From a virus: 44,023 nucleotides of DNA. Each line of letters starts with the position of its first letter. The stretch's first letter is position 1. The notes under the pieces are model-generated. The model ran no database searches and had not been told where the DNA came from. It was given only the letters and a program-made list of their open reading frames with translations. Shown here in pieces: positions 12,604-41,508 of the stretch. The DNA is taken from IMG/VR virus record IMGVR_UViG_3300021477_000013, positions 1-44,023 of that record; one strand, given 5' to 3'. The position numbers were made by a program, and so were the translations under genes.

Positions 12604-12822
12604 ATGAGTTATGGGGAATCCGCAGTTGGCTTGTCGTTCAACCCGTCGGGCAGCGACGATGTTCACGACTGTAAGCGATTATTCGCCGAGATTATTGATG
12701 CTCTCAACGACGCCCGCTCCAGTACTTCGGACGGCGAACACAAGCGTCTTTATAGCGTCGCGATCACCGAGGCGCAGACTGCACAGATGTGGGCGGTGAA
12801 GGCTATAACCTGGAGAGGATAA
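12604..12822 (+). CDS. Acb2/Tad1-hairpin-like protein (predicted cyclic-nucleotide sponge)
   Basis: 72 residues beginning MSYGESAVGLSFNPSG, with two helices (VHDCKRLFAEIIDALNDAR; AITEAQTAQMWAVKAITW). The FNPSG start, the helical hairpin and the AQMWAVKA(I/L)TW end are those I know from small phage proteins assigned to the Acb2/Tad1 hairpin family. Acb2 proteins form compact oligomers that sequester cyclic di- and trinucleotides made by bacterial CBASS defence. ATG 12604 follows AGGAGATCGC. The stop overlaps the next start (TAATG). Assignment rests on remembered family pattern; ligand specificity cannot be read from sequence. Confidence 0.72.
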   Translation: MSYGESAVGLSFNPSGSDDVHDCKRLFAEIIDALNDARSSTSDGEHKRLYSVAITEAQTAQMWAVKAITWRG

Positions 12823-30449: not shown

Positions 30450-31678
30450 TGCAAACAGTAACTGATGAAGACGGAACTGTCCACCAGTTTCCGGATGATG
30501 CCACGCCTGATGAAATAAACACGGCGCTTGGTAGTCAGAAAACTGGAGGGGCAACACCTTCTCCGGCAGCTGGTTCGCCGAACGCGACGGCGGATCAGCC
30601 TTCTTATGCGTCGCAATTAGTCGGTCAATTGGCAAAACCGTTGAGGGCGTTTAATAAGGGCCTAACAGGGGGATTATGGGACCCCGCTGTTGGCGGGGTA
30701 AAATCACTATTCGGTGCTGGTTCCCCGGCACAGGAACGCGCCCAAACCGCTAGCGGCGAAGCTCAAATGGGTCCGGGGGCTTCGATCGCGCTAGAAGGAG
30801 CTGGAATGTTAACTGGCCCCGGAAAACTAGCACAAACCGAAAATGCCGCTGCCCAAGCACCTGGGTTTGTAAACAGATTATTGACGCGCCTCGGCGGCGG
30901 AGCAGCGGAGGGCTCTACTTACGCAGGTGTGAACGCAGCAGCGAATCAGCAGCCGGTTGTCCCGGCGATGGAGAAAGGGGCGCTTATTGGAGGCCCCACC
31001 GCTGTTGCGGCTCCTGTTGTGACTGCCGCCGCGAGCAAAATTGCCGGGAAGATTCCAGAATCTATTGGTGGGCCTCCTACGCCTCCCGATGTTCCAACAT
31101 CCAGTTCTGTTGTTGACCCACGCCGATATGGAGGATATGCGTTTCCATCCAACGCCGACAAGTTAGCCTCCAGCAATCTCAGCGTACTTGAGAATTTAGA
31201 AGCGAATGCCAAGCTCGGCACCGGAACCTTAGGGAATCAGATTAAGTCATTGTTTGATAAGAACCCGTTAACTGGAACGGCTCCCGCCGATGCTATGGGT
31301 TTGACCGATGCTCAAGCTGATGCCCTGAAGGCTGTTCCCAAAGCGGCTCCAATTGCAAGCGGAATGGTGGCGCATCCGCGAATCACTCAAGGGGCCGTTG
31401 GCGCAGTCACCGAATTACCGGCGATGGCTTTGGGATTGCACGGGAATATAGCTGAGGCGATGGCAACCGAATCGATGGGTATTGGCGGCCATGTCGCCGC
31501 TGCCTATTTGCCGGTGATTCGCCAAGCGGCGGCTCAGCAAGCGGCCCTAAATGCAGCGAAGTATAAGATAGCGGGGATTCCGGTTCAGACTACCAGCAGC
31601 TTGCAGGATGCCCTAAATTCGCCGGATTCTAAACAGGCGTTGCAGGCGTTGATGTTTAATCGAACGCTAAATCAATAA
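30449..31678 (+). CDS. internal-virion-like protein with FPDDATPDEI opening
   Basis: 409 residues. The first 30 (TVTDEDGTVHQFPDDATPDE) match a short N-terminal domain often placed at the start of phage internal or transglycosylase-like virion proteins. The rest is Ala/Gly/Pro rich, with hydrophobic stretches (GGPTAVAAPVVTAAASKIAG) that might contact membrane. It is the last rightward gene; the leftward 29-residue ORF overlaps its end by 12 bases. Confidence 0.65.
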   Translation: MQTVTDEDGTVHQFPDDATPDEINTALGSQKTGGATPSPAAGSPNATADQPSYASQLVGQLAKPLRAFNKGLTGGLWDPAVGGVKSLFGAGSPAQERAQTASGEAQMGPGASIALEGAGMLTGPGKLAQTENAAAQAPGFVNRLLTRLGGGAAEGSTYAGVNAAANQQPVVPAMEKGALIGGPTAVAAPVVTAAASKIAGKIPESIGGPPTPPDVPTSSSVVDPRRYGGYAFPSNADKLASSNLSVLENLEANAKLGTGTLGNQIKSLFDKNPLTGTAPADAMGLTDAQADALKAVPKAAPIASGMVAHPRITQGAVGAVTELPAMALGLHGNIAEAMATESMGIGGHVAAAYLPVIRQAAAQQAALNAAKYKIAGIPVQTTSSLQDALNSPDSKQALQALMFNRTLNQ

Positions 31679-31756
31679 CAGAACTAGTGACCAGTTAAAT
31701 ATTCCCATGGCGACGAGGCCGATGAGAAACAGCCAGAACACTACTTCGGAATCCAT
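31667..31756 (-). CDS. 29-residue membrane peptide
   Basis: ATG 31756-31754 after a strong GAGGAG site. The product begins MDSEVVFWLFLIGLVAM and is one hydrophobic span. Its 3' end overlaps the last 12 bases of the convergent rightward gene. It is the second gene of a two-gene leftward unit from the promoter at 31994-32022. Might affect the membrane at lysis or superinfection; unknown. Confidence 0.5.
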   Translation of the reverse strand: MDSEVVFWLFLIGLVAMGIFNWSLVLLLI

Positions 31757-31838
31757 CTATGTCTCCTCTGTGTCATTGCCCACGCTTTGCTTGGTGAGCA
31801 GGTTACCCAATACGCCACTGCGTATTCACTGAATTCAC

Positions 31839-31970
31839 TCAGCGATGCAACAGCGCGGCGTAAATAAAGCCAGCTCCAACAACAGCCCACAAGAACCAGA
31901 CTGGCATTCTCCACATGAGCCGCCAAATCGCGGCGCGAACTATCGTGTTGAACAGTTGGTTGAAGTTCAT
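31839..31970 (-). CDS. 43-residue basic membrane protein
   Basis: ATG 31970-31968 after AGGAG. A basic amphipathic N-terminus (NTIVRAAIWRLMWRM) is followed by one transmembrane span (VWFLWAVVGAGFIYAALL) and a short HR end. First gene after the promoter at 31994-32022. Small phage membrane protein of unknown role. Confidence 0.55.
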   Translation of the reverse strand: MNFNQLFNTIVRAAIWRLMWRMPVWFLWAVVGAGFIYAALLHR

Positions 31971-31993
31971 CCCAGTCTCCTGTCGGTCTATAC

Positions 31994-32022
31994 ATCATAC
32001 CACACTCCTGATAGACTGTCAA
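31994..32022 (-). promoter_or_regulatory. sigma70-type promoter for two small membrane genes
   Basis: -35 TTGACA (32022-32017), 17-bp spacer ending TGG, -10 TATGAT (31999-31994). The -35 contains the TGA stop of the gene at 32019-32153. Confidence 0.85.
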
Positions 32023-32153
32023 CCCTCATTTATAGTGGAATCTCCTACGATGGTTAGCCATTTGTCACCAGCAGGTGTACTGGACGGTGGTATTGAAGCT
32101 GGTCCAGTACAGGCCGCCGCTGTGCCTCGTACAGTGTACGCCTCCCTAGTCAT
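32019..32153 (-). CDS. small hypothetical protein, 44 residues
   Basis: ATG 32153-32151 overlaps the preceding stop (ATGA). Product starts MTREAYTVRGTAAACTG and ends KWLTIVGDSTINEG. Its stop lies in the -35 box of the next promoter, as for several other terminal genes here. No recognised family; identified mainly from its coupling and placement. Confidence 0.45.
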   Translation of the reverse strand: MTREAYTVRGTAAACTGPASIPPSSTPAGDKWLTIVGDSTINEG

Positions 32154-32464
32154 ACACCGCCCGCAGCAGGGGCCGCCTGTGCCTGGGCCGCTACCACCCG
32201 CTGCTGAATTGTTGGGGTCCAATATGCCTCACGGAATTTATCTAATCCCAATTCATCGAATCTCTGATGAACTGAGGAATAGGCTTTATAACGCCTGCTA
32301 ATTAGGCGCGTTATAGTTCCTCGGTCTAGCTTTGACGCTAGAACTATTACTCCTTTCTCGATGCCTATAATCGAGGCATAATAAAATCCGCATCTCTCTT
32401 CGAAGCTCAGCTTGGGAGCCCATTTCCCGGTTCCTCCGAGAGACTTGCCTTTACCTTTCTTCAA
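32150..32464 (-). CDS. HTH-like small-protein family paralog C
   Basis: 104 residues, TTG start (32464-32462) overlapping the upstream TGA as TTGA, with AGGAG upstream. A basic Gly/Lys-rich start is followed by LSFEERCGFYYASIIGIEKG, LASKLDRGTITRLI, then a Tyr-containing turn and FDELGLDKFREAYW. This order aligns with the N-terminal domain of 7006-7575 and with 7568-7783. The C-terminus is Ala/Gln rich. Possibly DNA-binding; function unknown. Confidence 0.6.
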   Translation of the reverse strand: MKKGKGKSLGGTGKWAPKLSFEERCGFYYASIIGIEKGVIVLASKLDRGTITRLISRRYKAYSSVHQRFDELGLDKFREAYWTPTIQQRVVAAQAQAAPAAGGV

Positions 32465-32643
32465 TGCTGCTCTCCTAAGTGGTCGCGAATTTGCAATTCT
32501 AGTACTAGGCGATCTAAGTATTCCCGCCGCCAGCCTTTCTTGGAATGCTGAATCTTATCGATGCAGTTCAATAGATGTCTACGTTCCATTCGGCGCACCG
32601 GTATTCTCCTCCCGTCCTTGGTTACCCAAACCGTATCCTGCAT
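32461..32643 (-). CDS. small basic hypothetical protein
   Basis: 60 residues from ATG 32643, Arg/Lys-rich (RRIPVRRMERRHLLNCIDKI). It overlaps the upstream gene by 65 bases and the downstream TTG start by four. Possibly nucleic-acid-binding by composition; no family recognised. Confidence 0.55.
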   Translation of the reverse strand: MQDTVWVTKDGRRIPVRRMERRHLLNCIDKIQHSKKGWRREYLDRLVLELQIRDHLGEQH

Positions 32644-32827
32644 GGTTCATCTCTACACATTTTTTACAGTAGGATTCCCAGTTAACTTTGCTTACATTGA
32701 GAAGGCTGAATTCCAAATTCGGCCAGTGGCCTCGCCATAACCCGATTATGTCGCCACAAATCCACTCAATGGCCCACGCGCTTCCGCCTGCCGTGAGCCA
32801 AATATGATCGTCATGTTGCTCCGTCAC
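32579..32827 (-). CDS. small hypothetical protein with CxxC
   Basis: 82 residues from GTG 32827-32825, overlapping the helicase stop (GTGA). Trp-rich N-terminal half (HIWLTAGGSAWAIEWICGDI) and a YCKKCVEMN segment. Its last 20 residues overlap the next gene in another frame. Unrecognised. Confidence 0.5.
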   Translation of the reverse strand: MTEQHDDHIWLTAGGSAWAIEWICGDIIGLWRGHWPNLEFSLLNVSKVNWESYCKKCVEMNHAGYGLGNQGREENTGAPNGT

Positions 32828-34227
32828 GCTGGGACCGCCTTCCTTATGTGGGCGAAGATCGCTTTGAAAATAGATTCTTTACGCTGAAGCGCTCGAATGA
32901 CATTTCGATCCATGCTAGTCCCGCAAAGATCGATATAGTTGACCGAATTAGCATCCTGTCCGCGACGATGATTCCGGTCTTCAACTTGCGAGCGATCGTC
33001 GAGAGAATAGCTATTCTCAAAGAAGATGGTGGTGGAACATCGATTTCCAGGACCCGGACTACCCAAAAGTGTGTGGCCGTACTTTCCGGCTCGCTCTTGT
33101 ACCAGAATGATACGACAGGATGGGTTCTCGTTGAATTTTCGCTTTTGTTCATCGACTTCATCGGGTTTCATGCCCCCTGTGATTCGGGCGGGGTTAAACT
33201 CCTTTAACGCTTCACTCAAGATTTCGAACGTATATCGGTGAATATAGACGACGATAGCCTTGCCGGGAACCTCGTCGCGCAGAATGTCCAGCAACGTCAG
33301 GACGCGGGGATTCTTGTGCGGTTCACAGATAACTGTCACCTTCGATTCGTTGTCGGTATCGATGATGAACCCGCACTGAATTTGGGCCAGCTTTCCATAT
33401 TTCGTGATCGCCGCGTCCACCGTGACGAATTCGTCGTCGTTCATCCAGAGAACGAAGTCCTTTTCCATGCTCCGATATTGGGCGCGCTGTTCTTTCGTCA
33501 TCTCGTATTCGCGGGTCGTGTACACCTTGGGGATACTGAACAGCCAATCCTCTTTGGTAGCCCGGAATACATGTGGTTCGATAAGCTTCGCGAGGATGTC
33601 CTCATTCTGGGAGCCTATGACTTGCTTATTTTTGAACCCGCCCATCCGACAAAACATACCACGGAACGCGTAAAAATTGCGTCCATCCAGTTGGCCGATA
33701 GCTCGCATTTGAGCCCATAAGTCATGAGGCCCCTGAGCCGTCGGCTTTCCGGTGAGGATACGTCTGACAACTGCCTGCCGCGATAAGGATATAGCCGCCT
33801 TACTCTGTATCGCGTCATGAGTCTTAATCTGGATGCTTTCGTCAAGTGCGATGTAGGTGGGCTTCCGAGCCATCCAATCAAGAAGCTTAGTATGAATGGC
33901 TGGACTACGGATTGCTTCGTAGTTGATAATAAGTAAAGGCGGACGCTCATAACGTCGTCCAATAAAACGGTCGCTGTCAAACGTACCGCTCTGGAAGATG
34001 TGAGTTTCAAAGTCAAAGCCGTGCTTTTCGACTTCTTCGGCCCATCCGCCTTTGAAGGTATTGGGACATACCGCGACCATTCTAGTAGTGCCATCTGCAA
34101 TCCCCCTTTGGAACTCAGTTAACGCTGTTAACGTCTTCCCTAAGCCCATCTCCATGAAGAATCCGAATCCATGCCTACCCTTCGAGGCTTCGAGCGCGGC
34201 GATCTGGACTGGATCAAGAGTGCTCAT
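32824..34227 (-). CDS. SNF2/SF2-type DNA-dependent ATPase (helicase)
   Basis: 467 residues. Walker A MGLGKT (27-32); a DEAH-like box ALDES (127-131) followed by IQIKTHDA, as in SNF2 proteins; motif VI DRSQVEDRNHRRGQ near residue 415. It is a superfamily 2 ATPase that translocates on or remodels DNA; in phages such proteins assist replication or recombination. It overlaps the upstream small gene by 14 bases and is followed by a GTGA-coupled gene. Confidence 0.88.
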   Translation of the reverse strand: MSTLDPVQIAALEASKGRHGFGFFMEMGLGKTLTALTEFQRGIADGTTRMVAVCPNTFKGGWAEEVEKHGFDFETHIFQSGTFDSDRFIGRRYERPPLLIINYEAIRSPAIHTKLLDWMARKPTYIALDESIQIKTHDAIQSKAAISLSRQAVVRRILTGKPTAQGPHDLWAQMRAIGQLDGRNFYAFRGMFCRMGGFKNKQVIGSQNEDILAKLIEPHVFRATKEDWLFSIPKVYTTREYEMTKEQRAQYRSMEKDFVLWMNDDEFVTVDAAITKYGKLAQIQCGFIIDTDNESKVTVICEPHKNPRVLTLLDILRDEVPGKAIVVYIHRYTFEILSEALKEFNPARITGGMKPDEVDEQKRKFNENPSCRIILVQERAGKYGHTLLGSPGPGNRCSTTIFFENSYSLDDRSQVEDRNHRRGQDANSVNYIDLCGTSMDRNVIRALQRKESIFKAIFAHIRKAVPA

Positions 34228-34432
34228 TGTTCGCCAGATAAGTAGTCGCAGCTATGCGAGGAATCGACTCATCGATTATTTTAGAAGTGGTTAAGGCTAT
34301 CCCTAAAGCTATCGTAAGCGCTATGTTGCGCGTCTCATCATCAACATCGCCGATAGTTTGAACCGCCGCTCTTATCATCAATTTAGCTGCCTCCACACCA
34401 AGATCTATTGTTTCTTGCTCGTATTTATTCAT
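34214..34432 (-). CDS. small helical hypothetical protein
   Basis: 72 residues from ATG 34432, acidic and largely alpha-helical with a hydrophobic middle (RNIALTIALGIALTTSKIID), perhaps a buried or membrane-contacting helix. Overlaps the zinc-ribbon gene upstream and the helicase downstream. Unrecognised. Confidence 0.6.
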   Translation of the reverse strand: MNKYEQETIDLGVEAAKLMIRAAVQTIGDVDDETRNIALTIALGIALTTSKIIDESIPRIAATTYLANNEHS

Positions 34433-34595
34433 CTTCTGCCCCGGTTCTCCTCAGCCAATCCCGTAGCTCCTCTTTATCATTCGGATCGTCTTGGTCTGCG
34501 ATCCATTGGCAGGTTAGGCATCTCTTGCGAACGATGCCGAGAGCGTCGTAAACCTCGGAGCTACAATCTGTACAGATATAGGTCGGTTCATCCAT
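34425..34595 (-). CDS. small zinc-ribbon protein, 56 residues
   Basis: Starts at ATG 34595-34593 after GGGAGGG, overlapping the MazZ stop (TAATG). CTDC at 8-11 and CLTC at 26-29 are likely zinc ligands; the rest is acidic (DQDDPNDKEELRDWLR). Located immediately downstream of mazZ in the same operon. Function unknown. Confidence 0.65.
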   Translation of the reverse strand: MDEPTYICTDCSSEVYDALGIVRKRCLTCQWIADQDDPNDKEELRDWLRRTGAEDE

Positions 34596-34927
34596 TAGTC
34601 CCTCCCGTCGATCGCCATTGCGCACAAAATGAGAGCCATATTCGCCACGTCGGCAGCTTCGAGAACTATCTCTACGGTGTTCTTTCCCTCCTCAATGGCG
34701 CTGGCTAGTTCTGTGACTTCTTCCCGAAGGTGGTTCATGTATTCGACGACCCGCCCGTGTTCCCACTTTCCCTTGTGGGAATTCTTGCGCAGCTTGTAGA
34801 TCATCGCATCGAACATGCGCCTCATATCATGTTCATACGCTCGAAGCTCCGGCGGAATCTTGATCGTCAACTTGCTCCACTCTAGGCCCATGCCCGAAGA
34901 TAAATTTGTAATTCGCTCCGAGGACAT
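34595..34927 (-). CDS. mazZ: MazZ-like nucleotide pyrophosphohydrolase (MazG/DUF550 fold)
   Basis: 110 residues by the longest frame; the domain resembles DUF550/MazG proteins. The Mg-binding acids are in EEVTE (69-73) and EAADVAN (90-96, Glu90 and Asp93), with NSHKGKW (49-55) before them. In Z-genome phages this class converts dGTP to dGMP, supplying the substrate of PurZ. It overlaps the end of purZ by 95 bases if started at ATG 34927 (AGGA upstream). Later ATGs (34891, 34825) would shorten the overlap, so the true start is uncertain. No long linker or second domain is present. Confidence 0.85.
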   Translation of the reverse strand: MSSERITNLSSGMGLEWSKLTIKIPPELRAYEHDMRRMFDAMIYKLRKNSHKGKWEHGRVVEYMNHLREEVTELASAIEEGKNTVEIVLEAADVANMALILCAMAIDGRD

Positions 34928-35888
34928 CTCTAGTATTCCTGTGCTTTTTGTAAAAGTCCAGTTGCTCTAGGGTATTCAGATAGTTCATGAAGTTTAAGAA
35001 TACATGCGTCGGGTCGTTCGCTGTCACCGAATCCTTGAACTGGTTCCAGCTGAACGTAGCGACGCGGCGCACCCGCTTGGTTACGGTTGTATATTCGGTG
35101 GGAACGCCTACCGTATCCCAGTCGGTTTCATATTGATCAGTGTACCAATCCCCACTGCTGAACCCATCGGCATTTCCTACCCGGATGGGGTAGGTCCGGA
35201 AACACAGATAGCCCCTTTTGTAGTATGTCGGCGGGAGACGGGCGTCAGCCATTCCCTGCATGAACGTACATTCGCGGCTGGTTACGTGTGGATAAAATTT
35301 GGCCTCGTTTAATCCCAACGAGAACCCTTGAGAAATCTCCATAAAATACGGGTGATATTCCAGGTCGACAATATTCTCATAGTAAGGAAATAACCGATGG
35401 GAGTGATTGTAATAAATGGCAGAAGGATCACGGCGAACCTTTCTAGAAATTGCCGCGCCGGTTCCTGAACGTGTTCCAGCAACAGCGAATATACTGCCAG
35501 AGGTATCATTCTCTGTCACCCTATCCTTTTCGAGGATTACCGTCGCGCAGGGATGAATGAATATAGGGATGTCCGGAAATTCTAAGTGTTCCTTGATCAG
35601 CAATTCGGCGTCGATAGTTGCCCCTGCCGAAAAGTATACCGGAATGGTATGGCCTCGCAGATGCATGTGAACCGCGAAGGTGGGCAGTTGTTTTAGAACG
35701 ATCTTAGTTTCCCTGAAATAACTGGTGTGTCCGCTATTCGGCCCCGCGCTTGTGATGCAGCCGTTGAATGGGATTACTTCTATAATAGCGCGCTTGGCGA
35801 GCCAAGAAGCGATCAGCCCCTTCCCCTCTGAACCATATTGGCCTCCGGCGAGGATATGGAGGCCAGTGTCAGTGAATAGAGTGCTCAC
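34833..35888 (-). CDS. purZ: PurZ, 2-amino-deoxyadenylosuccinate synthetase
   Basis: 351 residues, homologous to adenylosuccinate synthetases. The P-loop-like start GGQYGSEGKG (15-24) has Ser20 where host PurA has the catalytic Asp (GDEGKGK); this replacement marks PurZ. GPNSGHT (49-55) and the GTRSGTGAA segment (138-146) are further family motifs, with RTYPIRVGN and ETDWDTVGVPTEYTTVTKR later in the sequence. PurZ joins dGMP and aspartate (ATP-driven) to give 2-amino-deoxyadenylosuccinate; host enzymes finish dZTP. ATG 35888 overlaps the preceding stop. Confidence 0.93.
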   Translation of the reverse strand: MSTLFTDTGLHILAGGQYGSEGKGLIASWLAKRAIIEVIPFNGCITSAGPNSGHTSYFRETKIVLKQLPTFAVHMHLRGHTIPVYFSAGATIDAELLIKEHLEFPDIPIFIHPCATVILEKDRVTENDTSGSIFAVAGTRSGTGAAISRKVRRDPSAIYYNHSHRLFPYYENIVDLEYHPYFMEISQGFSLGLNEAKFYPHVTSRECTFMQGMADARLPPTYYKRGYLCFRTYPIRVGNADGFSSGDWYTDQYETDWDTVGVPTEYTTVTKRVRRVATFSWNQFKDSVTANDPTHVFLNFMNYLNTLEQLDFYKKHRNTRDVLGANYKFIFGHGPRVEQVDDQDSAGASSV

Positions 35889-36097
35889 TTCATCATTTCC
35901 TTGAGCTTGTTGATGGCTGCTTGCCTCTCATCCAAGGGTTGGGGCGGCGGTGCAACTGGCACCGCCGCTTTGATTATAAATCGGTTGGCAGACCCACATT
36001 GTTGAGGCCAGGGGTATTTCCACGTGTGGAATCGATGACATGCCTCTGCCGGGGTGGTTATCAGCGTTATTAAGGCCAATCCGGCTAGTCTTTTCAT
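35885..36097 (-). CDS. small exported protein with signal peptide
   Basis: 70 residues. MKRLAGLALITLITTPAEA is a typical signal peptide; cleavage is likely after AEA. The mature part has CHRFHTWKYPWPQQCG, with two Cys that may form a disulfide, then a Pro-rich helix. It would act in the periplasm. Encoded between PurZ and the DUF6378 gene with four-base overlaps. Role unknown. Confidence 0.7.
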   Translation of the reverse strand: MKRLAGLALITLITTPAEACHRFHTWKYPWPQQCGSANRFIIKAAVPVAPPPQPLDERQAAINKLKEMMK

Positions 36098-36474
36098 TCG
36101 GCGGCCTTTCGCGATCGGATTTCGTCGAATAAGCCGCCGCCGGTTGGCTTCATTATTTCTTGCTTAGGCGCGGCTACCATTCCTGCGAGCGCAGTGTAAC
36201 CCGCGTCGTCTGCGAAATTGTCGCGATTGACATCGATTGCGTAGACAAACCGAGCCTTCTTAAGCAGGGACATCATTTCCAACACGTCAACTGCATCGAT
36301 TTGCAGCAGAATCGAGGGGTTCTTGTGCCTCGAATAGTTCGCGTGGCGGAGGTAAACCTCCCACATCTGCGCCACCATCGAATACGAGTTGTCTACGTCG
36401 CCGTGAATGTCTCGGCCTCCACCGACCGCCTGACTTGCGTCTTCCAGGATATCAACTGCTGTTGTGTTTCCCAC
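36094..36474 (-). CDS. DUF6378-like phage protein
   Basis: 126 residues. The pattern ILEDASQAVGGGRDIHGDVD, SYSMVAQMWEVYLRHAN, DVLEMMSLLKKARFVYAIDV and DNFADDAGYTALAG matches small phage proteins grouped as DUF6378. Function unknown. In the same operon as the exported protein and purZ, with overlapping codons. Confidence 0.75.
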   Translation of the reverse strand: MGNTTAVDILEDASQAVGGGRDIHGDVDNSYSMVAQMWEVYLRHANYSRHKNPSILLQIDAVDVLEMMSLLKKARFVYAIDVNRDNFADDAGYTALAGMVAAPKQEIMKPTGGGLFDEIRSRKAAE

Positions 36475-36838
36475 GTAACCACTCCTCTATTGTTCCGGCG
36501 TAATTCGCACCACTTGGCTGCTTAAACGCCTTGGTGATGAATGCCTCTCTGCCCCAATCCGCGATGTACATTACTTGGCTGCGCCATCCTATCAACACCG
36601 GGAACGCTATACCTTTTGCCTCGATGACTCGGATGCCTTCCACGTATTGTCTCTCGGACGGGGCGAATTTGAGACCATCCGTCACTTTGCCCTCGACAAA
36701 TAGGGTGGGATAACCAGTCGGCACGATGGTGATATCCAGAATGCCTACGCCGTATCCGTCTTCTATTCGCCGAGCATACCAACCCCTTGCCTTACATTGT
36801 TTCACAAGCTCGGTCTTGAGGATGGATTCTTCGCTCAA
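36452..36838 (-). CDS. VRR-NUC-like PD-(D/E)XK nuclease
   Basis: About 128 residues from TTG 36838-36836, which overlaps the upstream TGA (TTGA) with AAAGGA upstream; no in-frame ATG is well placed. Likely active-site residues: Asp35 (GVGILDITIV), Glu49 and Lys51 (FVEGKVTD), with a Gln64-containing helix (SERQYVEG) after. These fit the VRR-NUC branch, which cuts branched or flapped DNA. A replication or recombination role is likely. It overlaps the DUF6378 gene by 23 bases. Confidence 0.78.
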   Translation of the reverse strand: MSEESILKTELVKQCKARGWYARRIEDGYGVGILDITIVPTGYPTLFVEGKVTDGLKFAPSERQYVEGIRVIEAKGIAFPVLIGWRSQVMYIADWGREAFITKAFKQPSGANYAGTIEEWLRGKHNSS

Positions 36839-37053
36839 TGGATTGGCATGTCCTTTGCTGGTTCGCCGTCGATCGTCTCCAACATGTGCAACAACATGTC
36901 GCGACCTATTACACATTTCGCCCATGTGTTATCGTTTCCATCGAGAAGCATCACGTGCAAGTGATCGCATCCCCCGCACTTGTAGTAGCTCGTTGCGATG
37001 GCTGTTGGCGCGTCGTTTGGGTCTTCGAATGGTGCCCCGTCTTCATGTTCCAT
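36835..37053 (-). CDS. small acidic protein with CxxC
   Basis: 72 residues from ATG 37053-37051, overlapping the upstream stop (TGATG). Acidic N-terminus (MEHEDGAPFEDPNDAPT), then YYKCGGCDHLHVMLLDGN. One CxxC and a His could form half a zinc site. Unrecognised. Confidence 0.6.
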   Translation of the reverse strand: MEHEDGAPFEDPNDAPTAIATSYYKCGGCDHLHVMLLDGNDNTWAKCVIGRDMLLHMLETIDGEPAKDMPIH

Positions 37054-37262
37054 CAGATGAACCTGTTTTTCTTGCACCACCATGTTGGTGCATTGAATAT
37101 AGTGTTGCCTTCGGGATCAACATCTCGCACAATGTTGCCTATCGACTTGGGTAGCCAAGCTTGGTTGCCGGACATGTTGTCGATCACCAACCACGCCTTT
37201 GCTGTCGAGTGCTCTACCTTGCACTCTATTTCTTGCATTTCGTCGCCAACTTGATCTGCCAT
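37053..37262 (-). CDS. small hypothetical protein, first gene of the purZ/mazZ operon
   Basis: 69 residues from ATG 37262-37260 after GGAGGTCACG. The promoter at 37273-37301 gives an extremely short leader. Sequence: acidic start, beta-like KVEHSTAKAWLVIDNM and a WLPKSIGNIV segment, then a basic tail. A DUF-like small replication-region protein; unrecognised. Confidence 0.6.
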   Translation of the reverse strand: MADQVGDEMQEIECKVEHSTAKAWLVIDNMSGNQAWLPKSIGNIVRDVDPEGNTIFNAPTWWCKKNRFI

Positions 37263-37272
37263 CGTGACCTCC

Positions 37273-37301
37273 ATTATAACACGCCGTGCACCGGCTGTCA
37301 A
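37273..37301 (-). promoter_or_regulatory. consensus sigma70 promoter of the purZ/mazZ/helicase operon
   Basis: -35 TTGACA (37301-37296), 17-bp spacer ending TGT, -10 TATAAT (37278-37273), reading leftward. The -35 contains the TGA of the gene at 37298-37570. It can serve all genes from 37262 to 32019. Confidence 0.88.
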
Positions 37302-37570
37302 CTATCTTTTGCGCCTCGTACCAACCCAATCATATTTATAGCATGAACTACGTCGATGTCGCCTGCGATGTCTTCCATCTCTTTATCGCTAGGATTACGC
37401 AATTTATCGCCATCATATATTGCGACATGTGAACAATAGAAGCATATTGCCACATCCCCATCCTCCGGAGGGCGGCTCTTTGCGTTGGTTACGTCCATCG
37501 CCGCACTCATGGATTTATTGCAATTAGGGCAGAAACACTCAGGTCTTCTGAACGCTTCGATTCTAGCCAT
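37298..37570 (-). CDS. small zinc-ribbon protein downstream of the polymerase
   Basis: 90 residues from ATG 37570-37568 (GGAGGC upstream). CPNC near residue 14 and CFYC near 43 give a zinc ribbon; the C-terminal segment is helical (DIDVVHAINMIGLVRGAKD). It overlaps the polymerase stop by eight bases, and its TGA lies in the next promoter's -35. Unknown function. Confidence 0.65.
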   Translation of the reverse strand: MARIEAFRRPECFCPNCNKSMSAAMDVTNAKSRPPEDGDVAICFYCSHVAIYDGDKLRNPSDKEMEDIAGDIDVVHAINMIGLVRGAKDS

Positions 37571-39335
37571 AGGAAGCCTCCGCCCAATTAGTTCCAGTTC
37601 CGACCTCATAAGGAATAGGTAGACCGAGTTTAAATTCATCCGGGACCGCCTCGCAGACTTTTATCAATTCGGTGGTGTCGAATCCGATCTCGCGCTGCCA
37701 AATCAACGAATCGTGGATGGTCATTAGTAACTGTACCTGCGGATGAGCTTCCTCGTATTCGGAGGCGCGCAGGAGAGTTGTCTTCATCAAGTCGCCGCCG
37801 GAATTCTGTATGATTCGGCTCACCGCTCGATAAGCGTATGCTTTATCCTCTAGACGAGCCTTGCGGCCAGTGATCGACCTGACGTAGCCGCTCGATAAGA
37901 ATATGCCCTTCGCTTCTTTTTGGAACTTGAGAATGGCGGGGAATTGACCTTTCAGCCACGCCTGATGATAGTTCAACGCTCGATTGTAGTCCCAACCCAT
38001 ATGACCTGCCAACGCTTTAGCTGACATGCCTGTTAGGATTCCCATGGCCATTCGTTTAGCGATATCTCGGTGCAATCCCAGACCAGCGGAAGTGATGTCG
38101 TGGATGTCCATAGTTCCGGAGCGGTATCCCTGAAGTAATCGCTCATCTTCTGAGAAATATGCAAACAATCTAGGCTCTTGCTGTTTGGCGTCGCCTTCCT
38201 GAATCTCGAAACCGTCATCAGCAATGATGAGTCTTCTGACGGTTTTCCCGACTTCTTTATTTCGTTTTGGGAACGCTTGAAGATTCGGCTCAGAACAGCT
38301 AAATCGCGCTCCGATTGCACCGTAGTCGTCAGATTTAGATTGATTGAGTACAGGATGAACTCGTCCCTTAACATTATGCGTCTCCACAAGCGGCGTGACG
38401 AACGAATCCCGAGCTTTTTTCATCTGCCTTATGCCGATAATTCTTTCGCCAATTTCGTTATTTTTCAGCCATCCTTCGGTGAAGGATACGGCCCCATTCT
38501 GGGTGCGTGCGAAGTCATCGTCCCCGAACCCCTCACGACGATAAAGACTCTCAACGTCTTTCGGTGAGTTGGTATTGAAACCATATGGAAACGTCGATTG
38601 GATCGCGGCAATTTTGGTCTCGATGATTCCGTTCGGTCCTCTGAGTTGTTGACCATATTCGCCATCCACTTTCATCCCGCGTCGATGGAGACGCGCCACT
38701 CGATGAATTAGCTGACATTCCAGCTTCCAAGGAGTCCTCAATTCGTGTTCGTCTAGCAGCTTCTGCTGCGCCTCCCACAGCTCTAAAGTGGATATCCCGT
38801 CACCCGTAGCGTAATCCACAACGTCAGGATGATCGCCAGCCATCTTGTAAAAGTTAGCCATTGTCTTGCGGTTTGGCATACCGCCAAATTTCGCCGCGAT
38901 TGCCCGATAAAGAGCATCGCCAAGCTTAGCAGTAACACCATGGCGTTGGCTACAATCATCGAGTCCATACCCAGAAGTGACATCGCTGATAAGCCCCTCA
39001 TTTATCATGGTATCTTCCAAGGGGTACTCCGGAAATACGCCGTGTTTTCCCGCCATGCGCAGGTCGAAACCCAGAGCGTGACCGACCGTAAGGAAGCCGC
39101 GCCGAGCGCGAGTCTTGAATGCGAGACCCAAAACTCTCTCGAACTCCCCTGAATGAAGTATGTTTCCTCCACCAACATGGCCGGTGGGAACGTAGACGCT
39201 CGCATAGCGGTCTGTAAACACCCAACCCACAACAGTATCATGAATTGTCAATCCCGTTGTTTCTGTATCGAACGCCATCACAGAAGAGTGTTGCACCATA
39301 TCGATGGCGCGTTGCGGATCAATTCCCTGATACAT
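37563..39335 (-). CDS. family A DNA polymerase with 3'-5' exonuclease (DpoZ candidate)
   Basis: 590 residues from ATG 39335-39333 (GGAGACTAAA). Exonuclease motifs: FDTET (22-26), GHALGFD (85-91) and YATGD (175-179). Polymerase motifs: A with Asp382 (EGDAKQQEPR), B from Arg423 and Lys427, C with His541-Asp542. Unusual residues: relative to E. coli Pol I, the O-helix Phe762 is Met431 and Tyr766 is Thr435, and the Glu after the motif C Asp is Ser543. In Z-genome phages a proofreading family A polymerase (DpoZ) favours Z over A. Co-occurrence with purZ and mazZ supports that, but the substrate preference is inferred. Confidence 0.85.
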   Translation of the reverse strand: MYQGIDPQRAIDMVQHSSVMAFDTETTGLTIHDTVVGWVFTDRYASVYVPTGHVGGGNILHSGEFERVLGLAFKTRARRGFLTVGHALGFDLRMAGKHGVFPEYPLEDTMINEGLISDVTSGYGLDDCSQRHGVTAKLGDALYRAIAAKFGGMPNRKTMANFYKMAGDHPDVVDYATGDGISTLELWEAQQKLLDEHELRTPWKLECQLIHRVARLHRRGMKVDGEYGQQLRGPNGIIETKIAAIQSTFPYGFNTNSPKDVESLYRREGFGDDDFARTQNGAVSFTEGWLKNNEIGERIIGIRQMKKARDSFVTPLVETHNVKGRVHPVLNQSKSDDYGAIGARFSCSEPNLQAFPKRNKEVGKTVRRLIIADDGFEIQEGDAKQQEPRLFAYFSEDERLLQGYRSGTMDIHDITSAGLGLHRDIAKRMAMGILTGMSAKALAGHMGWDYNRALNYHQAWLKGQFPAILKFQKEAKGIFLSSGYVRSITGRKARLEDKAYAYRAVSRIIQNSGGDLMKTTLLRASEYEEAHPQVQLLMTIHDSLIWQREIGFDTTELIKVCEAVPDEFKLGLPIPYEVGTGTNWAEASYG

Positions 39336-39348
39336 TTTAGTCTCCGAG

Positions 39349-39391
39349 AAGCGGGCGGGGCCGAAGAACCACCAACAGAACCCCGCCCTTC
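39349..39391 (-). terminator. GC-rich hairpin just upstream of the polymerase start
   Basis: GGGCGGGG (39353-39360) pairs with CCCCGCCC (39381-39388), with partly matching flanks, 14 bases before the polymerase ATG. It may be an attenuator or terminator between the upstream gene and the polymerase; no T-tract is evident. Confidence 0.5.
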
Positions 39392-39422
39392 TAGCTACCA
39401 ACGTGATCTACGATTTACGGCG

Positions 39423-40259
39423 CTAGAACTTTGTATTCGCGTCTCGGTGCACCGGTTGCGCCCTCCCATTCGTTGAGGGCGGGTCGTCTCCTGTCCGCTC
39501 GTCGTTGGCGCGGAATGCCACGTCTTTGTACTGCTCGAACATCGATCGGGCGACTTCGCCGTCGCTCTCGTCTGCGTATCCCAGACTCTTGTAGTTAAAG
39601 TTGAAGTACGAGTTATTCTCGGGACCCTTGTCGGTGACCACCCCTATCGAATACAGTTGGAAGAAATGGTCCACAGGCTTAGCGTCGATCAGCGACAAGA
39701 GCCGCTGGCACTGCTTCACCGACCCCCGCGAATTGAGGATAATGGAGGGGCCGAGGTCCATTCTCTCTGGGAATAGCCAGAGAATTTCGTATGTGAGCGC
39801 GGCGGCAGGAGGCGAATTGGGGTCGTCATCCCTCTGCGTGCCGAACTGGTCGAGTTTTGATTCGGCGACAGTCGGGGCAAGCCTCCAGGTATAGGTTCGC
39901 GGATTCTTGGAGAACTTCACCTGGAATTCGCCCTCGGGCGGGTCCCACTTGATGCCGTCGCGCGACCGCGCCAGAATGCCGCGCTCGTCTCCTCTTGGTG
40001 CCCACAATACGTAGGTCTTGCGGAGGACCAGAGGAATTCCGATGAGTTCCTTACCCATCGATTCGTTGAGGATTGTGTGCCAGAACTCCCCTGCTTTGGC
40101 ATTCTCGTTTTCCTCAACTTCCGGGGAGACGGAAGCGAGGAGTTTGATGCGCGGAATTACCAGATCGGAGCGGTCGAAATTACCGAATCGCTCGGTCTTA
40201 ACTTTACCCACCAGATATTCAGGTAGGGCGTTGCTTCGGAATGGGATTACGTCGGCCAT
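39423..40259 (-). CDS. replication-region protein of unknown function (possibly ssDNA-associated)
   Basis: 278 residues. Pattern LVIPRIKLLASVSPEVEENE, AGEFWHTIL, LVLRKTYVLWAPRGDERGIL is known to me from phage proteins placed next to polymerase and recombination genes, sometimes annotated as ssDNA-binding-like. Beta-rich core, acidic or polar C-terminus (DDPPSTNGRAQPVHRDANT), as in ssDNA-binding proteins. Starts at ATG 40259; the next gene ends three bases before. Function remains unproven. Confidence 0.6.
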   Translation of the reverse strand: MADVIPFRSNALPEYLVGKVKTERFGNFDRSDLVIPRIKLLASVSPEVEENENAKAGEFWHTILNESMGKELIGIPLVLRKTYVLWAPRGDERGILARSRDGIKWDPPEGEFQVKFSKNPRTYTWRLAPTVAESKLDQFGTQRDDDPNSPPAAALTYEILWLFPERMDLGPSIILNSRGSVKQCQRLLSLIDAKPVDHFFQLYSIGVVTDKGPENNSYFNFNYKSLGYADESDGEVARSMFEQYKDVAFRANDERTGDDPPSTNGRAQPVHRDANTKF

Positions 40260-40261
40260 GA

Positions 40262-40759
40262 CTACACCTTTGTGATTGACGTGTATGGACGCAGAGTAGT
40301 AGTGAACAAGTCAGTCGGCAGTTCGCGTGCGTGCGTTTCGACCTCGCTCTTAGCGAATGAGGCCAGGGTTTGTGCGTTGATCGTTTCGATGATGATGCCA
40401 CCGTTTCCGGTGTCTCGGAGCCATTCGAAACTCTCCGGCTTCTTGCCGTCGACTATCGAGCAGCCCCATTTATACGCAACATTGACACGCCCGACACCAT
40501 CCACGGTTACTGTCTTGATGCCGGAGCGCTTGAACGCATCGGGTACATCCTCGTGGGACAAATGATCTTCTAGGTCGTCCAGTGCCTTACGCGCTTTCTT
40601 GATGTTTTCGGTGACCCCACGAAGTTCTGCGTAGTGCTTGATCAGAGGGATCAAATCACCCGCGCCGACGAATTGTTGGGTGTCGGCGATTACGCGCCTC
40701 GTCGCCTCTTCCAAGGAGAGGACTACTTGGCTAAGTACTAATTGTGTCATTGCTTGCAT
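40262..40759 (-). CDS. conserved replication-region protein of unknown function
   Basis: 165 residues. A helical N-terminal half (residues 15-70) is followed by a compact beta domain: VTVDGVGRVNVAYKWGCSIV, FEWLRDTGNGGIIIETINAQ, and a LRPYTSITK end. This arrangement recurs next to phage recombination/SSB-type genes. ATG 40759 (GAGGTG upstream) is the first gene of the polymerase operon. Function unknown. Confidence 0.65.
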   Translation of the reverse strand: MQAMTQLVLSQVVLSLEEATRRVIADTQQFVGAGDLIPLIKHYAELRGVTENIKKARKALDDLEDHLSHEDVPDAFKRSGIKTVTVDGVGRVNVAYKWGCSIVDGKKPESFEWLRDTGNGGIIIETINAQTLASFAKSEVETHARELPTDLFTTTLRPYTSITKV

Positions 40760-40799
40760 GTTGCACCTCGTTCCGGGCGCTCTTCACGCCCGTCCGATC

Positions 40800-40828
40800 A
40801 GTGTACCACGCCATGAGGTTGGTGTCAA
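40800..40828 (-). promoter_or_regulatory. sigma70-type promoter of the polymerase operon
   Basis: -35 TTGACA (40828-40823), 17-bp spacer ending TGG, -10 TACACT (40805-40800), reading leftward into 40759, 40259 and 39335 genes. Confidence 0.8.
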
Positions 40829-40852
40829 GTCCCCCTTCTACTCAGGAATAGT

Positions 40853-40912
40853 GAGGCCGAATCCCAGGGGGTGTGGGATTCGGCCTCCGTCGCGAGCGGT
40901 GTTCCCGCGACG
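40853..40912 (-). terminator. double hairpin after the PEP-CTERM-like gene
   Basis: A perfect 13-bp stem (40853-40865 with 40875-40887, loop of 9) and beside it a 7-bp stem (CGTCGCG 40888-40894 with CGCGACG 40906-40912). Together they lie between the gene's stop (40918) and the promoter of the next operon. They probably end leftward transcription, though no T-tract is present. Confidence 0.6.
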
Positions 40913-40917
40913 TTCGG

Positions 40918-41508
40918 TTAGCCCAAGTTCAGATCGGTTCTACGTCGGCTAGAGCCGAACATACTGAGCATCCCGAACCCTGCAATCAGCATCGCCCAAG
41001 TCGAAAGCTCGGGAGTTGCCGCCGCACCGACCCCGCTCACTCCTGTCACCGTTCCATCGATAGCGAGATGAATCGGCGATGAGCCGCTCATGCCCGCAAG
41101 TTCGGTGAAGTAGGTGCCCGCCGCAAGCACGTCGGGATTAAGCTCGGCGCTTTGGCCTCCCGGCGTATTGACAAGAGGCGTGCTTTCGAGGAGCGCACCA
41201 GCCGGAATGAACAAAGGCCCAGGCCCGATCGAGGTTTCAGTGTTGAGCGAAAGCACGCCGTCAACAATTTTGAGGCTGTTGCTGAAAGCGCTATCACTCA
41301 TCGAAACGCTGACGGTTTCGGTGGTCGGCAACGTGAACTCGAAGAATTCCGAGAACCCGATACCAGAACCCGGTGACGATTCGGCGGGGAGCGCGAGGCT
41401 CTCGTTAAGAATCGAACCGACGTCCTGAACGTCAATAAGGGTTGCTGCTCCTACTGGATTCGCGCCGATCGCAGCCAAGATCGTCGCGCCCAACAATATA
41501 CTTTTCAT
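40918..41508 (-). CDS. secreted protein with PEP-CTERM-like sorting tail
   Basis: 196 residues. Signal peptide MKSILLGATILAAIGANPVG (1-20), a beta-rich mature domain of about 140 residues with no Cys, and a C-terminal module: PELSTWAML (from 166), a hydrophobic span (IAGFGMLSMFG) and Arg-Arg-Arg. Signal peptide, PEP-like motif, one span and basic end are the tripartite PEP-CTERM signal read by host exosortase. It is a single-gene unit from its own promoter. PEP-CTERM proteins are exported surface or matrix proteins; in a phage this suggests host-surface modification, or a captured host gene. Unusual in a virus. Confidence 0.75.
   Translation of the reverse strand: MKSILLGATILAAIGANPVGAATLIDVQDVGSILNESLALPAESSPGSGIGFSEFFEFTLPTTETVSVSMSDSAFSNSLKIVDGVLSLNTETSIGPGPLFIPAGALLESTPLVNTPGGQSAELNPDVLAAGTYFTELAGMSGSSPIHLAIDGTVTGVSGVGAAATPELSTWAMLIAGFGMLSMFGSSRRRTDLNLG

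Follow-up and report, generated by a model that had tools for sequence, protein, structure and literature searches.

Repeated absence of datZ from the Z operon of phages related to Ochrobactrum phage vB_OspP_OH

How does a phage that is equipped to build 2-aminoadenine (the base Z) into its DNA keep adenine (A) out when it has no DatZ to destroy deoxyadenosine triphosphate (dATP)? This question is raised by the IMG/VR virus record IMGVR_UViG_3300021477_000013, which was analysed over its whole length of 44,023 nucleotides (the window). In the described pathway, MazZ supplies deoxyguanosine monophosphate (dGMP), PurZ makes dSMP, and host enzymes complete dZTP (PMC8342488). The phages from which the Z-cluster was described had been picked because they carry purZ as well as datZ (PMC8342488), and most PurZ phages are said to encode DatZ (PMC12884076). 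A first-pass annotation of the window found no HD-type DatZ among the minus-strand genes and offered four explanations: polymerase selectivity with proofreading, a host enzyme, a small gene in place of datZ, or partial substitution of A by Z.

The window comes from a soil phage, and its closest named relative is Ochrobactrum phage vB_OspP_OH (OH; NC_070933). The record can be treated as near-complete, since its two ends share 32 bp with one mismatch, its size matches that of the longest relatives (44-45 kb), and its genes form a full complement that agrees with OH over the replication and structural genes, with primase, portal, capsid and tail orthologues common to both. The end overlap and the OH-like gene content bear out the earlier impression of an essentially complete genome. 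The replication and base-modification operon occupies the minus strand between 40759 and 32824, in the order Gam-like/DUF7307, Pam3 gp34-like, family A polymerase (PolA), small open reading frames (ORFs), VRR-NUC, DUF6378, 70-aa ORF, PurZ, MazZ, two small ORFs and SNF2-type helicase, with a conserved core of polA–VRR-NUC–DUF6378–purZ–mazZ–helicase. The interval 31667-41508 given in the first-pass annotation contains this operon but is broader than the operon proper (about 32824-40759). The operon order in OH is identical, including DUF6378 and VRR-NUC, and the proteins share 55% (PolA), 52% (helicase), 49% (PurZ) and 43% (MazZ) identity with those of the window. The difference is that OH has datZ (gp35) between mazZ and the helicase gene, whereas the window has none.

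Judged by its signatures, the Z gene set of the window (PurZ, MazZ and family A polymerase) is real. The PurZ signature GQYGSEGKG has a serine at the position of Asp13 of PurA, and the protein is placed in the tree with PurZ, not PurZ0; its score against the PurZ model NF038379 is 197 bits, under the cut-off of 300 (E 5e-58). The mazZ gene adjoins purZ, and its product, the sole MazG-type protein detected in the window genome, retains the metal-binding ExxE and ExxD residues, which are invariant. The MazZ family profile matches the solved structure of S-2L MazZ (7ody) at 2e-7.

The absence of DatZ was assessed with five models, namely a 5-protein DatZ profile, PF12917, phrog_7076, a 24-sequence DatZ profile and the HD family PF01966. 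None of them matched the window in whole-record searches, and a six-frame search of the window with the 5-protein profile and all filters off gave a best E of 0.94. As a positive control, the 24-sequence profile scored E=1e-62 to 1e-75 in seven datZ-positive records, with OH among the datZ-positive matches, while the same profile produced no match at E<=10 in the window or in 10 other long datZ-minus records (37-45 kb); no DatZ or HD match was obtained in these 11 records. At the place where OH carries its 552-bp datZ, between gp34 and the helicase gene, the window leaves 368 bp between the end of mazZ at 34595 and the start of the helicase gene at 34227, occupied by a 66-aa zinc-ribbon-like ORF and a 72-aa ORF, and datZ therefore does not physically fit. 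Among the remaining predicted proteins of the window, a Pfam scan revealed no nucleotide phosphohydrolase. By these criteria of sequence and space, DatZ is truly lost from the window, and the profile searches that had been proposed as a check agree with the first reading of the minus-strand genes. Relocation of datZ to another part of the genome was rejected, as the whole-record searches found no match. A datZ remnant or highly diverged DatZ in the slot was likewise rejected, because neither slot ORF is related to DatZ and the interval is too short for the gene in most datZ-minus relatives.

What the first-pass annotation overlooked is that this loss is widespread. Loci were collected by two IMG/VR scans with the window PurZ; the set consists of the 80 best matches to the clade of the window, and the datZ-minus fraction accordingly holds for the OH-like lineage, not for all Z phages. 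Among the 72 resolved loci, defined as contigs with both purZ and the helicase gene and including the window and OH, 46 have mazZ without datZ, 22 have both, four have datZ without mazZ, and none lacks both. Once near-copies (PurZ at least 95% identical) were removed, 36 of 56 loci were without datZ, and an additional scan with PolA agreed with this result. Of the 46 datZ-minus loci, 35 have a gap of at most 200 bp between mazZ and the helicase frame, while the gap is at least 441 bp where mazZ and datZ are both present. On the PurZ tree, datZ changes state seven to eight times, at least six of these being forced by supported branches. No datZ-positive locus falls in the 13-member clade of the window, whereas the early branches, the outgroup and OH itself are datZ-positive. 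Distances between DatZ sequences correlate with those between the PurZ sequences (Mantel rho 0.59, p=0.0005), in keeping with a gene that is inherited vertically. This pattern is most simply read as repeated loss of a datZ that the ancestor possessed, although on counts alone some regain is possible. The best explanation would be that DatZ is optional in the OH-like lineage, an accessory and repeatedly lost part of the Z-cluster.

Some loci depart from this arrangement in other ways. A mirror-image variant, in which purZ is directly followed by datZ without mazZ, occurs in L023, L027, L028, L030 and L034; the loci with datZ but without mazZ form one small clade. In a 44.8-kb contig (L008 and L118), the best PolA segment is 99% identical to that of the window while PurZ is only 86-87% identical, pointing to recombination within this operon. 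Among other named PurZ phages, PSA28, BUCT555, ZP6 and Kokobel2 have DatZ. In the isolate Bacillus phage vB_BpsS-140 (L108), purZ has no neighbour within 6 kb that matches DatZ, MazZ or DpoZ.

If DatZ is dispensable, the remaining parts most likely handle adenine, with PolA foremost. The exonuclease residues D26, E28 and D85 (phiVC8 numbering) are kept in every PolA examined, including all those of datZ-minus loci, and R161 and M165 are mostly kept; the window PolA also conserves R358 before motif A. No OH-like polA without purZ was found among the loci with enough downstream sequence. This strict linkage argues that the OH-like PolA is a Z polymerase, and the idea of an ordinary, non-Z PolA finds no support in these loci. 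The characterised DpoZ of phiVC8 shows a preference for dZTP of 1-2 orders of magnitude (PMC8599892), and we infer a similar leaning towards Z for the window PolA. On balance, we favour the view that A is excluded fully or mostly by the purZ-linked proofreading PolA, helped by the use of dATP by PurZ and possibly by MazZ.

The route would be as follows. An ancestor of the window lineage would have carried datZ between mazZ and the helicase gene, followed by its clean loss. MazZ would convert deoxyguanosine triphosphate (dGTP) to dGMP, PurZ would combine dGMP with aspartate to give dSMP, host PurB and kinases would lead to dZTP, and the purZ-linked PolA would replicate the genome. Adenine would be discriminated at polymerisation, through a Z-preferring PolA and its proofreading. 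The dATP pool would be drawn down by PurZ, for which dATP would be the phosphate donor (S-2L PurZ accepts dATP as well as ATP; PMC8342488), and possibly by MazZ too. These activities and the completeness of A exclusion are inferred from sequence, and a datZ-less phage may carry a little A.

Several points weigh against exclusion by PolA. Even at physiological levels of dATP, the DpoZ of phiVC8 by itself inserts some A (PMC8599892), so that selectivity of the polymerase may not be enough. Against the NCBIfam model DpoZ_1 (NF038380), the window PolA reaches 245 bits, well under the cut-off of 500, and its position as sister to the phiVC8-type DpoZ has weak support (77/61). A phenylalanine at phiVC8 position 459 (Klenow Y766) is common to the characterised DpoZ clades (PMC8599892), but this position is threonine in the window and in all 29 datZ-minus PolA sequences examined, and serine in OH. 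No residue change in PolA, MazZ, PurZ, DUF6378 or the helicase convincingly tracks the loss of datZ, in a comparison of six independent contrasts with low power. We found no published measurement of Z in the DNA of an OH-like phage, and the passages that we found in the description of OH give gene annotations only (PMC7139368). The polymerase option of the first-pass annotation is strengthened by the proofreading residues and the purZ linkage, while the missing DpoZ residue, which it had not taken into account, speaks against it. As a separate observation on this enzyme, the window PolA has methionine at F762, and the threonine or serine at Y766/F459 in all OH-like PolA breaks the sole residue said to be common to both DpoZ clades.

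The same incorporation of A by the phiVC8 enzyme when dATP is present, together with the lack of the phenylalanine in the OH-like PolA, would fit partial substitution, in which phage DNA made without DatZ contains both A and Z, with enough Z to resist many host nucleases. In E. coli, incomplete expression of the Z-cluster lowered the Z content (PMC8342488). The strict linkage of PolA and purZ across the lineage instead suggests a dedicated Z polymerase, and the datZ-less state is stable in the 13-member clade of the window. We regard such a mixture as possible but rather unlikely.

A similarly doubtful explanation assigns the removal of dATP to MazZ, which would act here as a dual dGTP/dATP pyrophosphohydrolase and make DatZ redundant. 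The fused homologue of the SH-Ab 15497 phage hydrolyses both dATP and dGTP (PMC8342488, PMC12884076), although this dual activity may stem from its DUF5664 domain, which the window lacks, and S-2L MazZ is specific for dGTP. That mazZ is kept in every resolved datZ-minus locus, and is the only candidate of MazG type detected in the window, would suit a takeover. Nevertheless, the lack of double-minus loci (0/72) is not significant because the loci with datZ but without mazZ belong to a single small clade, and neither MazZ type nor MazZ sequence separates datZ-positive from datZ-minus loci.

A further proposal is that dATP is disposed of by an enzyme that has escaped recognition, either DUF6378 or the product of another small operon ORF. 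Within the flanking 10 kb, no gene family consistently partners the datZ-minus state, and a common replacement gene was rejected; the families with the strongest association are structural genes, or else shadow ORFs confined to sub-clades. DUF6378 draws attention because 82 of 87 loci carry it beside purZ, because its H, G, W, K, R and D positions are invariant, and because it also occurs near the Z-cluster of Burkholderia phage Bm1 (L017), Alteromonas phage ZP6 (L110) and, weakly, phiVC8 (L015); near the purZ of S-2L, SH-Ab, PSA28, BUCT555 and Kokobel2 it was not found. However, it is present with or without datZ and is therefore not a datZ-specific substitute. It also occurs in phages outside the PurZ matches, such as mycobacteriophages, where it adjoins a glutaredoxin gene, a neighbour that could be read in favour of the proposal. 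Its predicted fold is helical (mean predicted local distance difference test score of 83), and a fold search with this small helical bundle gave only unspecific helical-bundle matches. No similarity of DUF6378 to DUF5664, MazZ or DatZ was detected by hhalign profile comparison (probability <1%), which speaks against homology, and a scan of viral contigs for relatives of the SH-Ab DUF5664 returned none. DUF6378 is best seen as a general accessory in MazZ-2-type Z operons and not as a DatZ substitute. The zinc-ribbon and 72-aa ORFs that fill the place of datZ are confined to the closest relatives of the window and so offer no account of datZ-less lineages elsewhere. A disposal enzyme among these small genes is improbable, and the small-gene option offered at the outset is unlikely to hold as a general replacement.

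The host could also supply the dATPase, in the form of a YfbR- or dGTPase-type HD enzyme. HD proteins, including a YfbR-like family, are common in bacteria, as the control genomes showed. Against this, the tree intermingles datZ-positive with datZ-minus relatives, whose hosts would have to differ accordingly, and a host enzyme that depletes dATP would presumably harm the host itself. We consider this source very improbable. The comparison of loci has in this way narrowed the four original options, which sequence cannot fully separate.

In comparison with the phiVC8-type Z-cluster (datZ-mazZ-purZ with DpoZ, including ZP6 and Bm1), the window shares purZ, a mazZ of MazZ-2 type, a proofreading family A polymerase and a nearby DUF6378, but differs in lacking datZ, in the threonine opposite F459 and in having no helix-O insertion in PolA. 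The Wayne and Ghobes PurZ0 phages are, like the window, Z phages without DatZ; in contrast to the window, their dATP is removed by DutZ, DmtZ and DUF5664-1 (PMC12884076). The window has PurZ instead of PurZ0, and searches of it and of 17 other records for DutZ (PF00692) and DUF5664 (PF18909) produced nothing at E<=1. The features of the operon are collected in Table 1.

Table 1. Features of the Z operon of the window and of the adjoining replication genes.
Feature	Position	Strand	Support
Pam3 gp33-like protein	40262..40759	-	PF23984 7.4e-27; OH orthologue annotated as Gam-like nuclease inhibitor
Pam3 gp34-like protein (replication/recombination module)	39423..40259	-	PF23977 1.8e-30
Family A DNA polymerase (3'-5' exonuclease present), classed as DpoZ-like from similarity and purZ linkage	37563..39401	-	PF00476 9e-43; 55% identity to OH PolA
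113-aa protein with CxxC pairs, zinc-ribbon-like	37298..37639	-	weak match to a function-unassigned PHROG; close relatives only
82-aa protein	36835..37083	-	no family match; close relatives only
VRR-NUC-like nuclease	36452..36925	-	36% identity to OH gp30 'putative nuclease'; weak PHROG endonuclease; 79/87 loci
DUF6378 protein, helical, near-constant operon member	36094..36474	-	PF19905 4.4e-17; 82/87 loci
70-aa ORF	35885..36097	-	no family match
PurZ, predicted 2-aminoadenylosuccinate synthetase (dGMP to dSMP)	34833..35888	-	PF00709 2.7e-19; NF038379 PurZ 5e-58
MazZ (MazZ-2 type), MazG-like pyrophosphohydrolase	34595..34927	-	43% identity to OH gp33
66-aa zinc-ribbon-like ORF, former datZ slot	34425..34625	-	closest relatives only
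72-aa ORF, former datZ slot	34214..34432	-	no convincing family; 7 loci only, all in the window's own clade
mazZ-helicase interval; datZ site in OH and datZ-positive relatives	34228..34594	-	
SNF2-type helicase, 3' boundary of the Z operon	32824..34227	-	PF00176 3.7e-16; 52% identity to OH gp36

Two further genes of the window were noted. Between the terminase and portal genes, on the plus strand (12604-12822), a 72-aa protein contains an Acb2/Tad1 hairpin domain (PF24729, 1.4e-10) and is likely an anti-CBASS/anti-Thoeris cyclic-nucleotide sponge. Just upstream of the Z operon, on the minus strand (40918-41508), a 196-aa protein combines what looks like a signal peptide with a C-terminal tail resembling PEPxxWA-CTERM (NF038126 2.7e-6 and NF035944 2e-5, both under cut-off); a phage-encoded protein with such a sorting tail is unusual.

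While the Z-cluster itself is known, the new element is a broad, mostly uncultured PurZ lineage of which about two thirds lack datZ, apparently through repeated losses. It is a tentative and rather doubtful thought that this large environmental lineage of Z phages excludes A without any dedicated dATPase, either via the divergent purZ-linked polymerase with threonine at Y766/F459 or via a novel disposal of dATP by DUF6378. The findings point to a group of polymerases that are linked to Z but do not have the residue common to DpoZ. The repeated losses of datZ would serve as natural replicates for asking whether polymerase selectivity alone keeps A out of DNA, and the answer would matter for the laboratory production of ZTGC-DNA.

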